The notes beneath the pieces were generated by a model. It ran no database searches. It saw nothing but the letters and a program-made list of their open reading frames with translations, and was not told the origin of the DNA. Source: Enorma burkinafasonensis (GTDB taxonomy: Bacteria; Actinomycetota; Coriobacteriia; Coriobacteriales; Coriobacteriaceae). Taken from it: a stretch of 36,502 nucleotides of DNA. The DNA lies in NCBI RefSeq assembly GCF_902150035.1, contig NZ_LR597515.1, positions 1 through 36,502 on the forward strand. Direction: 5' to 3'. How positions within the stretch are numbered: the first letter of the stretch is position 1; each line of letters begins with the position of its first letter. Below, piece by piece: positions 17,152-22,201 of this stretch. A program made the translations under genes and the position numbers.

Positions 17152-18666
17152 CTACTGGTAGCTCACCATCTGGTGGTTGCGGTCCTTGACGACGACGTCG
17201 TGCGCGCCGCCCTCGACGATCGAGGTCGCCGACACGAGCGTGAGGCGCGCCTTCTCCTGCAGCTCCTTGATGGAGAGCGCGCCGCAGTTGCACATCGTGG
17301 ACTTCACCTTGTAGAGCGTGGCGCCCACGCCGTCCTTGAGCGAGCCGGCGTAGGGCACGTAGGAGTCCACGCCCTCCTCGAACGCGAGCTTCGCCGCGCC
17401 GCCGAGGTCGTAGCGCTGCCAGTTGCGCGCACGCGCGGAGCCCTCGCCCCAGTACTCCTTCATGTACTGGCCGTTCACGTTGACGCGGGCCGTGGGGCTC
17501 TCGTCGAAGCGCGCGAAGTAGCGGCCGAGCATGAGGAAGTCGGCGCCCATGGCAAGCGCGAGCGTCATGTGGTAGTCGTAGACGATGCCGCCGTCGGAGC
17601 ACACGGGCACGTAGATGCCGGTCTCCTCGAAGTACTCGTCGCGCGCGCGGCACACGTCGATGAGCGCCGTGGCCTGACCGCGGCCGATGCCCTTGGTCTC
17701 GCGCGTGATGCAGATCGAGCCGCCGCCGATGCCGACCTTGATGAAGTCGGCGCCGCAGTCGGCGAGGAAGCGGAAGCCCTCGGCGTCGACGACGTTGCCG
17801 GCGCCGACCTTGACCGAGTCGCCGTAGTTCTCGCGGATCCACGCGAGGGTGCGCTTCTGCCACTCCGAGAAGCCCTCGGAGGAGTCGATGCACAGCGCGT
17901 CGGCGCCGGCCTCGATGAGCAGCGGCACGCGGGTCTCGTAGTCGCGCGTGTTGATGCCCGCGCCCACCATGTAGCGCTTGTTGGCGTCGAGCATCTCGTT
18001 GGGGTTGGTCTTGTGCGAGTCGTAGTCCTTGCGGAACACGATGCCCACCAGGTGGTCGTTCTCGTCGACCACGGGCAGGGCGTTGAGCTTCTTGTCCCAG
18101 ATGACGTCGTTGGCGCGCTTGAGCGTGATGTCCTTGTCGCCGACGATCAGCTGCTCGCGCGGGGTCATGAAGGTCGCGACCTTCATGTTGGGGTCGTCGC
18201 GCGAGGGGCGGTAGTCGCGGCTCGTCACGATGCCGAGCAGCTTGCCGTGGGCGGTGCCATCCTCCGTGACGGGCATGGTGGAGTGCCCGGTGCGCTGCTT
18301 GAGGTCCATGACCTCGGCCATCGTCATGTCAGGCGTGAGGGTGGAATCGGAGATCACAAAACCGGCCTTGTGGTCCTTCACGGCCTTGACCATCGCGGCC
18401 TCCTGCTCGGGGGTCTGCGAGCCGTAGATGAACGACATACCGCCCTCGGTCGCGAGCGCGATGCCCATCTCCTCACCGGAGACGGACTGCATGATGGCGG
18501 AGACCATGGGGATGTTCAGCGTGATATCGGGCTCCTCGCCGCGCTTGAAGCGCGTGAGCGGGGTCTTCAGCGAGACGTTGTTGGGCACGCACTCCGAAGA
18601 AGAGTAGCCAGGCACCAGCAGGTACTCGGAAAACGTATGGGACTCGCCGGGGAAAAACATCGCCAT
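17152..18666 (-). CDS. guaB: IMP dehydrogenase
   Basis: IMPDH (504 aa) oxidises IMP to XMP, the committed step of guanine nucleotide synthesis. The (beta/alpha)8 barrel is interrupted by a CBS-domain pair (about residues 95-225, with TMPVTEDG and [15 protein letters not shown]). The catalytic Cys loop is [20 protein letters not shown], and the mobile flap carries the Arg-Tyr pair in ARNWQRYD. The SICITRE loop and 504-aa length match the branch that includes the bacterial-type enzyme of the protist Tritrichomonas foetus, rather than the common 485-aa GuaB; this is from memory of the family. The start at 18666 (MAMFFPG) follows AGAGGAG by 4-5 nt. Confidence 0.94.
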
Positions 18667-18724
18667 GATACTCCTCTTTTCTCTTTGGGTGCGGGCCCTC
18701 CCCGGGCGCAGCGGCTGCGAGGAG

Positions 18725-18783
18725 GTCCACACGGCGGCGTGGACGGAACCGTTTGGCGATACGGTTCTTGACGAGCCATTGTA
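18725..18783 (-). promoter_or_regulatory. guaB promoter (-10 TACAAT) with two tandem leader hairpins
   Basis: TACAAT at 18783-18778 is a near-consensus -10; the -35 is weak. The resulting leader of about 105 nt holds two consecutive perfect hairpins: GAACCGT/ACGGTTC (18767-18761 with 18752-18746, 7 bp) and GTCCAC/GTGGAC (18744-18739 with 18730-18725, 6 bp). No purine riboswitch core is recognised. The paired hairpins may be a post-transcriptional control element. Confidence 0.5.
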
Positions 18784-18840
18784 GCTCAGGTAAGGGCGAT
18801 AGTCTCCGCACGAAATCGCCTGCGAAAAACATGCATCTTT

Positions 18841-18891
18841 GGGGGCCGCACGTGGCGCCGAGCCGGCTCGCAGGCTCGCGATGAGGCCCCC
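18841..18891. repeat. GC-rich inverted repeat with inner palindrome, guaB upstream region
   Basis: GGGGGCC (18841-18847) and GGCCCCC (18885-18891) flank a loop containing the perfect 12-bp palindrome CGAGCCGGCTCG (18859-18870). No gene ends here. Both strands can form the structure and neither has a good U-tract. Confidence 0.5.
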
Positions 18892-18920
18892 TCACCCGCA
18901 CGCGTCCGCCTCGCCATGCC

Positions 18921-19019
18921 ATTCGGTCTTCAAATGAATAGCTTTCGGCGCGTTTTCTGCAATTCGCTCTTCAAATGAATGTCGAATGTCACTCAATTCC
19001 ATTCGATAGAAAAATGAAC
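18921..19019. repeat. Three ~40-bp-spaced copies of an ATTCG...AAATGAA repeat in an AT-rich patch
   Basis: ATTCGGTCTTCAAATGAAT (18921-18939) recurs as ATTCGCTCTTCAAATGAAT (18962-18980) with one mismatch and a 41-bp step. A third, degenerate copy with the same ends, ATTCGATAGAAAAATGAAC, is at 19001-19019 (39-bp step). Each contains TTCANNTGAA or a relic of it, an inverted core. TCGAAT/ATTCGA (18982-18987, 19001-19006) adds a further inverted pair. The spacing is close to four DNA turns, which suits a protein binding the same face. The patch to about 19200 is far more AT-rich than its surroundings. Confidence 0.6.
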
Positions 19020-19236
19020 AAATCACAACCTGAGGTCGCAGCTTGCCTATAGTCTCTACCTGCATGTTTTACCTGCCGAACGATTGTGACTGCAATTCGA
19101 AAAAGAAATGTAGGGCGATTATTCTTCATTTTTCAATCGGATGGATTTCCCTGTCGCGATACATACATTCGTTCATCGGATTGCATCGCTTCAACTCGCC
19201 GTGGCACGCGAGCAGACGGCGCCCCGACGGTTCTGG

Positions 19237-19242
19237 TATGAT
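19237..19242 (+). promoter_or_regulatory. Candidate -10 element for the orphan PD-(D/E)XK-like gene
   Basis: TATGAT at 19237-19242 matches the -10 consensus in five of six positions and would give a leader of about 37 nt to the start at 19286. No convincing -35 is present, so transcription may need an activator acting from the repeats upstream. Confidence 0.45.
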
Positions 19243-19285
19243 GGGCACCCCTCTCCTGTGCATGCCTCCGGGAGGAGACATCTGC

Positions 19286-20293
19286 ATGGACAATTCATCG
19301 ACGTTTATCTGTGGCAGATCGGCGCTTGAGATATACCGGTCGCCAACGGATGGAGTCCGGCTCGCGCGTCTGCTGAGCCAAGAGCGATCAGGACTTGTTT
19401 CGCCTTGCACCGGGCCGGGATGCCGTGTCAGACCCCAGGCCCCAAAGCGCGATCTCGCCAGCGCCCTTGCGGAGATGTTCGGCTTGCCGCTCCCCCTCGT
19501 GACCCTCGTCTGCGAACCGGGACGGCGCCGCCTCTCGACGTATACGCGCACGGTGCTCGATACGGACCCCTTCCATCTCACAGCGTTCATCGAGATCGAG
19601 CACGGCGTCTTCGTGGCAAGGCCCGAGCTTGTGTACTACCAGCTGACCAAGGGCGCAAGCATCGCGCAAGCCTGGATGCTCGCCTCGGAGCTCTGCGGCA
19701 GGTACGCCCTGGATCCCCATGCGGAGAGCGGGATGCGCAAGCGCCCGCCGCTGACCTCGCCGGAGCACCTGGCGTCATTCTTTCGCCTGTCGCGCTCGTG
19801 CCGCTCGCCATCTGCCGCGCGCCGCGTGATCGAGCACATGAGGCCGGGCGCGCGCTCGCCGAGGGAAGCCGAGCTCGCCGCGCTCATAGCGCTGCCGCGG
19901 CGGATGGGCGGGCGCGGAATCCCCGGCGTGACGCTCAACCGCGAGATCGAGCTCTCACCCGAGGCGGCGCTCATCGCGCGCAGGGAGAAACTCGAAGGCG
20001 ACGTCTTCATAGAGTCCATCATGCAGGACGTGGAATACGACAGCAACGCGCACCATCTCTCGCGCGAGGCGCACGAGCGCGACGGGCGCAAGGCGAACGC
20101 GCTGAGGATGATGGGCATCGGCCTCACCACCATAACGGAAGGCCAGCTCATGAGCTGGAACACCATCAACACGATACTCGCCGACCTCTGCGCTAGGGGC
20201 CGTTTCCACCGGCATCCCGAAACCCAGGGCATCCGTGACGCCCAGCAAAGGCTGTGGCGCGAGCTGCTTTCGCTCGATGCGACCGCCCGTTAA
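19286..20293 (+). CDS. Orphan protein with C-terminal PD-(D/E)XK / DUF559-like nuclease-fold domain
   Basis: The product is 335 aa; I do not know its function. The N-terminal half has ALEIYRSP, then YTRTVLDTDPFHL, GVFVARPELVYYQL and MLASELCGRYALDP, a layout I associate with many unnamed Coriobacteriia proteins and with AbiEi-type proteins. The C-terminal half has SPREAELAALIALPRRMGGRG, then DVFIESIMQDVEYDSNAHH and RDGRKANALRMMGIGLTTIT. Asp239, Glu250, Asp252, His256/257, Asp266 and Arg268 match the pattern of DUF559/Vsr-like endonuclease folds; the usual catalytic Lys is not obvious. The ATG at 19286 has GGAGGAG 8 nt upstream. It stands alone, divergent from guaB and convergent with mntP, behind an AT-rich repeat-bearing region. 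Nuclease activity is inference. Confidence 0.75.
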   Translation: MDNSSTFICGRSALEIYRSPTDGVRLARLLSQERSGLVSPCTGPGCRVRPQAPKRDLASALAEMFGLPLPLVTLVCEPGRRRLSTYTRTVLDTDPFHLTAFIEIEHGVFVARPELVYYQLTKGASIAQAWMLASELCGRYALDPHAESGMRKRPPLTSPEHLASFFRLSRSCRSPSAARRVIEHMRPGARSPREAELAALIALPRRMGGRGIPGVTLNREIELSPEAALIARREKLEGDVFIESIMQDVEYDSNAHHLSREAHERDGRKANALRMMGIGLTTITEGQLMSWNTINTILADLCARGRFHRHPETQGIRDAQQRLWRELLSLDATAR

Positions 20294-20370
20294 CCGGTGC
20301 GCCGCGGCAAGCAGCTGCGGTGCGGCCGGCGGGCGGCGCAGGCGGGCACCGGGGCGGGGGGGCGCCCCTC

Positions 20371-20946
20371 CTATCCCAGAAACGCCTTGAGGCCGATGAG
20401 GACGAGCACGACGCCGCCCGCGATCTCGGCGCGCGGGCCGAAGTGCGCGCCCAGGCGCCGGCCGACGACGAGCACGGCGCAGCAGCAGGCGAAGGTCGTG
20501 ATTCCGATGGAGGCGCCGTAGAGCACGATGTTCGCCCCCGCGGCGGCGAGCGAGACCCCGACCACGAAAGCGTCGATCGAGGTCGCGACCGCCTCGAGCA
20601 TGATGGTCGGGTACGTGAGCCCCGTGGCGGGGCACTCCTCGGGCTCGCGCAGCTCGCGCACCGCCTCGACGATCATCTTGCCGCCCACGAACGCGAGGAT
20701 CGCGAGCGAGACGATGCCCGCGTACGCCTCGATGACAGGCGCGATGAGCGTGCCGCCGAAAAAGCCCAGGATGGGCATGGCCATCTGAAAGACGGCGAAC
20801 GCCACGGGCATGGCGAGCTTCTTGGAGGCGGGCATATCGGGCTCGCAGAGCGAGTTGGAGAGCGTCACGGCCATGGCGTCCATGGCGAGCGCGACGCCCA
20901 GAAGCAGGCTCTGAACGAGGTCAGCGCCGGTGAAAGCGAAATCCAT
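20371..20946 (-). CDS. mntP: MntP-type manganese efflux pump
   Basis: The membrane protein (191 aa) belongs to the MntP family that exports Mn2+. Six hydrophobic helices are visible in two three-helix repeats, each with the family acidic motif: ALAMDAMAVTLSNS in the first helix (Asp23) and AVATSIDAFVVGVSLA in the fourth. FFGGTLIAPVI and IGLKAFLG are also typical. The length matches the family (about 185-190 aa). GGAGG lies 11 nt upstream, a rather long spacing. It is 100 bp downstream of the Cys/Met-family gene and may be cotranscribed. I see no yybP-ykoY manganese riboswitch in front. Confidence 0.92.
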   Translation of the reverse strand: MDFAFTGADLVQSLLLGVALAMDAMAVTLSNSLCEPDMPASKKLAMPVAFAVFQMAMPILGFFGGTLIAPVIEAYAGIVSLAILAFVGGKMIVEAVRELREPEECPATGLTYPTIMLEAVATSIDAFVVGVSLAAAGANIVLYGASIGITTFACCCAVLVVGRRLGAHFGPRAEIAGGVVLVLIGLKAFLG

Positions 20947-21046: not shown

Positions 21047-22201
21047 TCAGGGCTGCGGAGGATTGCAGAAGAGGCGAAGCGCCTGGTCGAGGCTGTCGGT
21101 AACCTCGAGCGGGTCGTCGAGCCCGGCGTAGATCCTCAGGTAGGCGAGGTTGCCCGCCTTGATGCAGGACACCGCGCTCACTGGGCGGGCGTCGGCAGCC
21201 TTGGGCCGGACCGACTCGAAGAGCTCGATCAGGCGGCGGGCACGCCCCTCGCACGACGCGAGCGGGGCGCCCGTCAGGCAGAAGTCGATCACGGGGCCGA
21301 ACCCGTGCTCGAGCGTGACCGTCGCGACGCCGTGGTCGACATGCGAGGCGATACCCGGATACCAGACGTAGCCGACGCTCGGATGGCAGCCGAGGTACGC
21401 GGCGATCGCGCGCGCGGAGTCCATGCGCTGCTGCATCGCGGCGGGCAAGGTACCCAGCACGCTCGCGATACGGTCGAGCTCGTCGCCGTCGAGCGCCGCG
21501 GAGCCGCTCGGGGCGGCAGCGGGGTCGCCCAGGCGGAACGTAAACAGGCGGTAGGCATCCTCCGCCTCGGGATGGACCAGGCGCTTGCGCCCGCGTCCGG
21601 TGCATGACGGGGCGATGCACACGGCGTAGGACTTAGGCCGTTGCGCGTTCAGGCACCCCGCGTCATCGGAGCCGATCGCCTCGAGGCACACCTGGGCGCC
21701 AAGGGCCAGCGGCTTGCAGGCGAACGAGGTCGCGCGCGAGCAGTCGACGATGAGGAGCGCCCCCACCGAGCGGGCGGCGCGCGCGAGGGCGCGGATGTCC
21801 GGCAAGCGCACGCCGGGCGCGCCGAGCATATCGACGAACCAGAACAGGCGCGCCGAGCTCATGCCCGAGCCGAACGCGTACGAGGCGGGCGAGCCATGCG
21901 CGGCCAGGCCGTCATCGCTGCAGGTCGAGAAGCGCGCGAGATAGTCGGGGTCGCCCCAGCCGGACTGCGCGAGGAACGCCTCGGGCGCCGGGTCGTCGAC
22001 GGTCACGACGCTCCCCCACGTGAGGACATCGGGCACGGCGTCGCAGCAGGCCGCCGTGAACGCGACGAGATGGTCCTCGGGCCCGATGACGCCGAGCTTG
22101 GTGAGGAGGTCGAGCGGGCAGGTGGCGCGCATCAGCCATGCCGCCCGCGCCCCGTGCATGCGGGCGATCTGTCCGGCGAGCTCAACTTGGCGAGAAGCCA
22201 T
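21047..22201 (-). CDS. Cys/Met metabolism PLP-family protein lacking the Schiff-base lysine (probable pseudoenzyme)
   Basis: The protein (384 aa) aligns by eye with cystathionine gamma-synthase / methionine gamma-lyase enzymes. It has AFGSGMSSA (usual FxSGMAA), DIRALARAARSVGALLIVDCSRAT (usual D-N-T-F-A-T at Asp153), KPLALGAQV, WYPGIASHVDH, GFGPVIDFCLTG and LRIYAGLDDPLEVTDSLDQAL at the end. At the place of the PLP-binding H-S-x-T-K-Y motif it reads VCLEAIGSDDAG (171-182), with no lysine. The later S-x-T-H stretch is also altered. The frame is intact with normal codon bias, so it is under selection as a protein. Its role is unknown; a non-catalytic or regulatory function is inferred. The start at 22201 follows AGGGG by 6 nt. 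Confidence 0.82.
   Translation of the reverse strand: MASRQVELAGQIARMHGARAAWLMRATCPLDLLTKLGVIGPEDHLVAFTAACCDAVPDVLTWGSVVTVDDPAPEAFLAQSGWGDPDYLARFSTCSDDGLAAHGSPASYAFGSGMSSARLFWFVDMLGAPGVRLPDIRALARAARSVGALLIVDCSRATSFACKPLALGAQVCLEAIGSDDAGCLNAQRPKSYAVCIAPSCTGRGRKRLVHPEAEDAYRLFTFRLGDPAAAPSGSAALDGDELDRIASVLGTLPAAMQQRMDSARAIAAYLGCHPSVGYVWYPGIASHVDHGVATVTLEHGFGPVIDFCLTGAPLASCEGRARRLIELFESVRPKAADARPVSAVSCIKAGNLAYLRIYAGLDDPLEVTDSLDQALRLFCNPPQP

Follow-up and report, generated by a model that had tools for sequence, protein, structure and literature searches.

REPtrons and TIRtrons are, as described in PMC3733652, units in which palindromic or inverted repeats stand on either side of a RAYT gene encoding a HUH tyrosine transposase and related repeats are scattered over the genome. 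I-Bth0305I (PDB 3r3p) is an EDxHD homing endonuclease which, according to a review (PMC3943268), dimerises on a target near 60 bp. It is described as intron-associated, with other DNA-binding parts. Further points of comparison are the very-short-patch repair endonuclease Vsr (1cw0), the AbiEi antitoxin of the AbiE type IV system (6y8q), and the AbiEi_4-DUF559 proteins of other Actinomycetota (PF13338 together with PF04480 or PF18741). In the literature searched, pairing DUF559 with AbiEi and pairing extragenic palindromes with flanking Vsr or nuclease genes both returned nothing, a search for Coriobacter palindromic repeats and endonucleases gave nothing on topic by title, and no tested function for proteins of the AbiEi-DUF559 kind was seen.

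The gene studied here belongs to a family that resembles the REPtrons and TIRtrons in two respects: at family level a single gene is flanked by repeats (in the window upstream only), and related repeats are dispersed in the genome; the enzyme differs, having a PD-(D/E)XK-type nuclease fold. The window, meaning the whole stretch of 36,502 nucleotides analysed, carries the gene at 19286..20293 on the + strand, where translation gives an open frame of 335 aa that starts with the ATG at 19286 and reaches its stop at 20293, with GGGAGGAG as a ribosome-binding-like stretch 8 bp ahead of the start. It is a single gene amid ordinary genes, flanked by a guaB-like gene (17152..18666, − strand) and an mntP-like gene (20371..20946, − strand), both on the opposite strand, which, named from their sequences, would be IMP dehydrogenase and the MntP-like manganese efflux protein. 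The GC3 of the window gene is 0.815, and codon use in the family is odd: GC3 averages 0.695 over 24 family genes and 0.874 over 155 conserved neighbours. Among the window neighbours there is no AbiEii toxin partner gene beside it, and among the called window genes, judged by eye, no cytosine methyltransferase. Rfam gave no match at 18600-20500, and the output of a promoter and terminator scan of the window was near shuffle expectation.

Domains and conservation of the protein

The protein comprises two parts, namely an AbiEi-like half without the winged helix (residues 2-186; 19289..19843, + strand; VIA-align and hhalign) and a nuclease domain (residues 188-307; 19847..20206, + strand; VIA-align, hmmsearch and conservation). 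In a structure model built from 24 aligned sequences (mean pLDDT 90.1), VIA-align matched residues 188-307 to I-Bth0305I (3r3p, the best structural match) with Z 10.5, to the DUF559-kind endonuclease-like protein 3hrl with Z 9.5 and to Vsr with Z 9.0, the three alignments spanning 92-100 residues. Foldseek alone on the model gave no match at E ≤ 0.001, and the fold was assigned from VIA-align as a second look together with profile evidence from hmmsearch and hhalign. A profile of 22 relatives (alignment A1) searched against the PDB by hmmsearch matched 3hrl (E 1.1e-5) and 3r3p (E 5.9e-4), so that the matches at E ≤ 0.001 are exclusively nucleases of the Vsr/DUF559/EDxHD group. VIA-align also matches model residues 188-322 to Toxoplasma and Tetrahymena mitoribosome chains (Z 6.8-8.9), and we presume that these apicomplexan and ciliate matches of the nuclease domain are perhaps to RAP-type domains.

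Against a set of 15 DUF559 proteins from actinobacteria, 12 with a Pfam match to AbiEi_4, hhalign gave probabilities of 98.6% and 98.9% (E 5.9e-16 and 2.1e-17), the match beginning at template column 131 or 143, beyond the winged-helix part of the AbiEi-DUF559 proteins. In the comparison with wHTH-AbiEi-DUF559 proteins the N-terminal winged helix of AbiEi is absent from the window protein. Residues 2-186 align with residues 64-195 of the 6y8q chain, its C-terminal part, at Z 7.4, a value below 8 and weak alone. From the AbiEi-like fold and the start of the hhalign match past the winged helix, it follows that the window protein is an AbiEi-DUF559 protein that lost the winged helix or never had it. 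The AbiEi_4-DUF559 proteins share the domain order and are homologous over residues about 56-304, whereas the Coriobacteriia proteins start at an SHxSAL-like motif and are without the N-terminal winged helix; from the AbiEi antitoxin the window protein differs further in its extra nuclease domain and in having no AbiEii partner. Matches to PF04480 or PF18741 were obtained for 8 and 9 of the 22 family members (E ≤ 0.01) and for the window protein itself at that threshold none, nor did a single-sequence Pfam search or a PADLOC search of the window protein return any match; a hit to EutC (NCBIfam, E 0.053) was taken as chance.

The window protein contains D239-x10-E250-Y-D-S-x2-H256-H257 followed by R265-D266-x-R268-x2-N-A-L-x3-G277, and the residues E194, D239, E250, H257 and D266 were mapped by sequence alignment onto what we take to be the EDxHD motif. 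E194 is conserved in 77/77 family sequences, D239 and H257 each in all 76 that have a residue there, D266 in 73/76 and E250 in 69/76, and the five catalytic-type positions are all intact in 66/76. The earlier note, made from the sequence without database searches, had read this same nuclease pattern, which is present exactly as it was listed and is conserved across the 77 family sequences; it had also proposed a C-terminal domain of Vsr/DUF559 type, borne out by the structural and profile matches, and an N-terminal half with AbiEi-like features, which the 6y8q alignment and the hhalign matches to AbiEi_4-carrying proteins uphold, less the winged helix. No confident match to a non-nuclease fold turned up for the C-terminal domain. 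The gene evolves under purifying selection, as judged from G055 against G058 (dN 0.074, dS 0.418).

Hairpins around the family genes and their positions

Shared repeats in the two flanks (E ≤ 1e-3) were found at 22 of the 52 family loci with enough flank and were missing at the other 30, two further loci having been left out for too little flank. Bracketing was then compared with other genes in tests devised after the pattern was seen, whose counts are not independent, loci coming from related species and several of the bracketed genes being orthologous: a shared flank repeat at E ≤ 1e-5 occurred in 16/40 family genes and 4/314 other genes of the same loci; where both intergenic flanks are at least 150 bp, in 16/32 family genes and 0/81 controls; and matched hairpins, with the same stem on both sides, in 15/53 family genes (38/53 unbracketed) and 1/286 controls. 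Read off the trees, the bracketed genes represent about ten distinct branches. The one control bracketed by matched hairpins is thrS (L142, 2859-4622) in G028, a genome of the same bacterial family. Long hairpins of about 62-146 bp are frequent among the bracket repeats, alongside some of small size or weak fold. As in terminators, a T-run closes several of the hairpins, and convergent gene pairs flank many of the dispersed ones. By these comparisons, many family members have a copy of a long hairpin on each side. The idea that all clades share a single hairpin was rejected, as the flanks of different clades mostly mismatch.

Clade-specific stems were also observed away from the genes. G001 has six hairpins with the stem AAAGCGTCGCATAACTC (≤3 mismatches per arm), 2 of them bracketing the gene, and G002 likewise. 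In four Adlercreutzia-type genomes a 24-bp arm gave 28, 31, 22 and 20 matches (control 0), mostly as inverted pairs, and two arm pairs surround the gene in 3/4 of these genomes, the fourth having one arm on each side; in G105 a palindrome recurs in pairs and is present on both gene sides. Hairpin arms of G055, G058 and G059 flank the family genes of those three genomes and occur in 0 of the remaining 31 mntP-guaB gaps. The paired stem AAGCRTCGCA...TGCGAYGCTT occurs in 6/65 genomes (control 0) and brackets the gene of one clade in 5/6 of the genomes that have it. Two of the genes so bracketed, in G005 and G025, were located solely via the hairpin, the second hairpin being in each a relaxed match only, and both cluster with the genes of G000, G001 and G002 (support 99). 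G007 has three such hairpins, which bracket 0/4 of the family genes examined there (of 8), and the sister gene in G003, of the same clade as the bracketed genes, has a different stem.

Upstream of the window gene lies a composite palindromic array (18917..19144, + strand) of three direct copies spaced by about 40 bp (18917, 18958 and 18997) together with an inverted arm pair at 18999 and 19125; it can also be described as about 36-bp hairpins 41 bp apart plus the CCATTCGATTGAAAAATGAAC arm pair. The array is found at about 10 intergenic places in the window genome, the window copy counted (16 matches at ≤3 mismatches, reversed control 0), and 165.5 kb of window-genome DNA not chosen for the array holds a single copy, the one upstream of the window gene; about 380 kb from four congeners holds none. 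Repeat and matched-hairpin tests found no repeats on both sides of the window gene besides this upstream array, and the 77 bp between the gene and mntP contain no downstream palindrome copy. The closest relatives, at L057/L093 and L058, likewise have no matched repeat on both sides. With palindromes upstream only, the window copy may be decayed, rearranged or domesticated.

Positions were compared over 34 mntP-guaB intervals from 33 genomes (L058 and L165 being the same place). An intact family gene is present in 5/34 (the window, L057, L159, L162 and L163) and no family gene in 28/34; the locus thus varies among relatives. The one remaining interval, L158 in G054, holds a truncated remnant, the N-terminal about 62-69 residues of a family gene, which is evidence of loss in place. 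Two more loci at contig edges, L059 and L167, have a family gene beside one of mntP and guaB. The gene and guaB point in opposite directions in the window, L159, L162 and L163 and in the same direction in L057 and L059; in L167 the gene points the same way as mntP. The window gene shares clade and interval with that of Enorma massiliensis on the opposite strand, and it is possible that it flipped in place, although breakpoints of such a flip were not found. The copies at the mntP-guaB neighbourhood come from one clade comprising the window, L057, L058 and L059 (support 99), a second comprising L159, L162, L163 and L167 (support 99), and a third comprising L139, L145 and L152, downstream of guaB; in E. 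phocaeensis (L058) the gene of the window's clade is two intervals off, beside thrS. Elsewhere, a single clade uses two slots that lie about 15-20 kb from each other: its gene is in slot A in G000 and G003, where slot B is empty, and in slot B in G001 and G002, with slot A empty in G001. Other family copies keep the same slot across several species, as vertically inherited genes would. The slot changes, empty slots and low identities show that family genes shift locally, get lost and diverge fast.

At one empty site G001 has a single 68-bp hairpin and no gene where G003 has hairpin-gene-hairpin, and the single hairpin is 91% and 81% identical to the two hairpins of G003; this one case fits either a gene inserting at a hairpin or a gene lost from between a pair. 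No hairpin is kept at the empty slot B of G000 and G003, so the single-hairpin pattern at empty sites is not general. Between G058 and G059 the family gene has a dS of 0.016, against 0.49 for mntP, 0.19 for thrS and 0.076 for guaB, and hairpin 1 marks a step in identity, about 88% before it and 99-100% after it; the opposite boundary is gradual. This single case, a recent exchange that is sharply bounded at that hairpin, was weighed against the conversion of empty alleles expected of a free-standing homing endonuclease.

A proposed palindrome-targeting nuclease unit and its rivals

The hairpin-bracketed nuclease genes suggest an undescribed small selfish or domesticated mobile unit. At family level we favour a palindrome-targeting, REPtron-like nuclease unit built on a different enzyme, a reading that we judge to be evenly poised between right and wrong and in which binding, cutting, dimerisation and mobility are all inferred. 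For the window gene the same reading is an extension, made from its fold and the upstream dispersed array with no downstream copy. Recognition would differ by family clade, each having a long palindrome of its own, and would probably involve a dimer whose two proteins each take one palindrome arm; the AbiEi-type half probably binds or reads the DNA, and the nuclease half, to go by its intact catalytic positions, should cut DNA, so that the palindrome would be nicked or cut. Repair from another copy would then spread or convert the palindrome, and repair would sometimes move, replace or lose the gene held between two palindromes. The target near 60 bp on which I-Bth0305I dimerises, as given in the review cited above, is close in length to the 62-70 bp hairpins here, which makes a dimer on such palindrome arms plausible; the likeness of the family to that enzyme is one of fold. 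A wider version, which we hold as tentative and rather doubtful, is that Vsr/EDxHD-type nucleases with clade-specific recognition mobilise class-wide the dispersed 60-140 bp hairpins of Coriobacteriia, as an independent parallel to RAYT and REP with a PD-(D/E)XK nuclease in place of the HUH transposase, hairpin-gene-hairpin being the autonomous form and the scattered hairpins its non-autonomous offspring or scars.

Several other readings were weighed against the palindrome-targeting unit. The proteins might be AbiEi-descended, self-regulated DNA-binding proteins with the palindromes as operators, those beside the gene controlling it and the dispersed ones marking a small regulon, and the nuclease retained for binding or rarely used. 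The AbiEi-like half would suit this, as would the one cognate hairpin sequence per clade and, in the window, the immediate upstream position of the three array copies with their spacing of about 40 bp, together with the array's about 9 other intergenic places in the genome; against it, brackets are present on the downstream side as well, many dispersed hairpins lie beyond gene ends and not in promoters, the winged helix is absent and the catalytic residues are conserved in 66/76 sequences, and we find regulation of this kind unlikely. Somewhat less likely still are ordinary two-way terminators, copied or kept as insulation of weakly expressed genes while the nuclease acts elsewhere. The same stem sequence on both sides of a gene, a stem almost exclusive to genomes with that protein clade, the single hairpin at the empty site and the 0/81 control genes with long intergenic flanks that are bracketed all speak against terminators, even though several hairpins have an A-run/stem/T-run shape and lie between converging genes.

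An anti-phage or restriction-type defence gene varied through strain exchange seems improbable to us. It would agree with presence or absence at one slot, with the low GC3, with fast divergence (42.5% identity of the nuclease gene between the window and L057, where guaB has 95.0% and thrS 89.2%) and with weak PADLOC matches among 24 members (mREase_II in 4, DpdF in 1), yet the window protein itself has no PADLOC match, no partner gene stands in the window and the slots are single genes among housekeeping-type genes. For a Vsr-like mismatch or DNA repair enzyme we see very little chance: the Vsr fold (Z 9.0) is set against 3-9 divergent copies per genome, the fused AbiEi-like half and the missing methyltransferase beside the window gene, and in copy number, fusion and the adjacent methyltransferase the family departs from Vsr itself. 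The earlier note had considered a defence, mobile or toxin-antitoxin link as possible; of these the mobile link gains real though indirect support from the hairpin brackets, which the note did not foresee, and the toxin-antitoxin link lacks support, with neither a partner gene beside the window gene nor a winged helix. The AT-rich upstream region that it pointed out is confirmed: GC falls to 0.457 over 18930-19240, where most of the surrounding window has about 0.67-0.70. Conservation of the gene at this locus in all relatives, which it gave as a refuting outcome, is not what the 34 intervals compared show.

Should the nucleases of the palindrome-targeting reading act on the hairpins, REP-like repeats would have a second class of enzyme behind them, and the palindromes scattered in Enorma, Olsenella, Adlercreutzia and other common gut bacteria would be accounted for. 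The cognate palindrome of each clade is a concrete candidate substrate. If they do not act on the hairpins, the cognate pairing would still indicate DNA-binding specificity.

Spread and divergence of the family

The family is fast-evolving and spread through Coriobacteriia. Copies are present in 64/65 genomes of the window's bacterial family, with 3-9 in each, and in a scan of named genomes 26 of 111 stretches were confirmed as family loci, every one in a record whose title gives a Coriobacteriia genus or bin, in keeping with the earlier note's mention of many similar unnamed proteins in this class. The window genome holds 7 family copies; with 7 paralogues in the same genome the window gene is not the lone orphan it had been called. 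In the wider phylum, DUF559-type proteins were found in 22/41 sampled Actinomycetota genomes.

Between the window and L057, mntP is 81.1% identical, and the PLP-type neighbour 43.3%, diverging as fast as the nuclease gene, so that divergence speed alone proves little. This PLP-enzyme-like gene (21047-22132), adjoining mntP, shows 43-51% interspecies identity while guaB and thrS stay at or above 89%. A phage or viral origin was considered and rejected, there being no phage match and 0 confirmed among 26 pattern stretches in viral contigs; two Collinsella records, one of 899,693 bp, were not accepted as plasmid carriage. Two contigs of one Atopobiaceae bin (L061 and L074) carry a near-identical family locus, 96% over 479 bp upstream, representing either strain mixture or duplication. 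The contig of L059 is titled Candidatus Olsenella pullicola, and its gene, beside guaB, is 93% identical to the Enorma massiliensis copy; that title may be misplaced.
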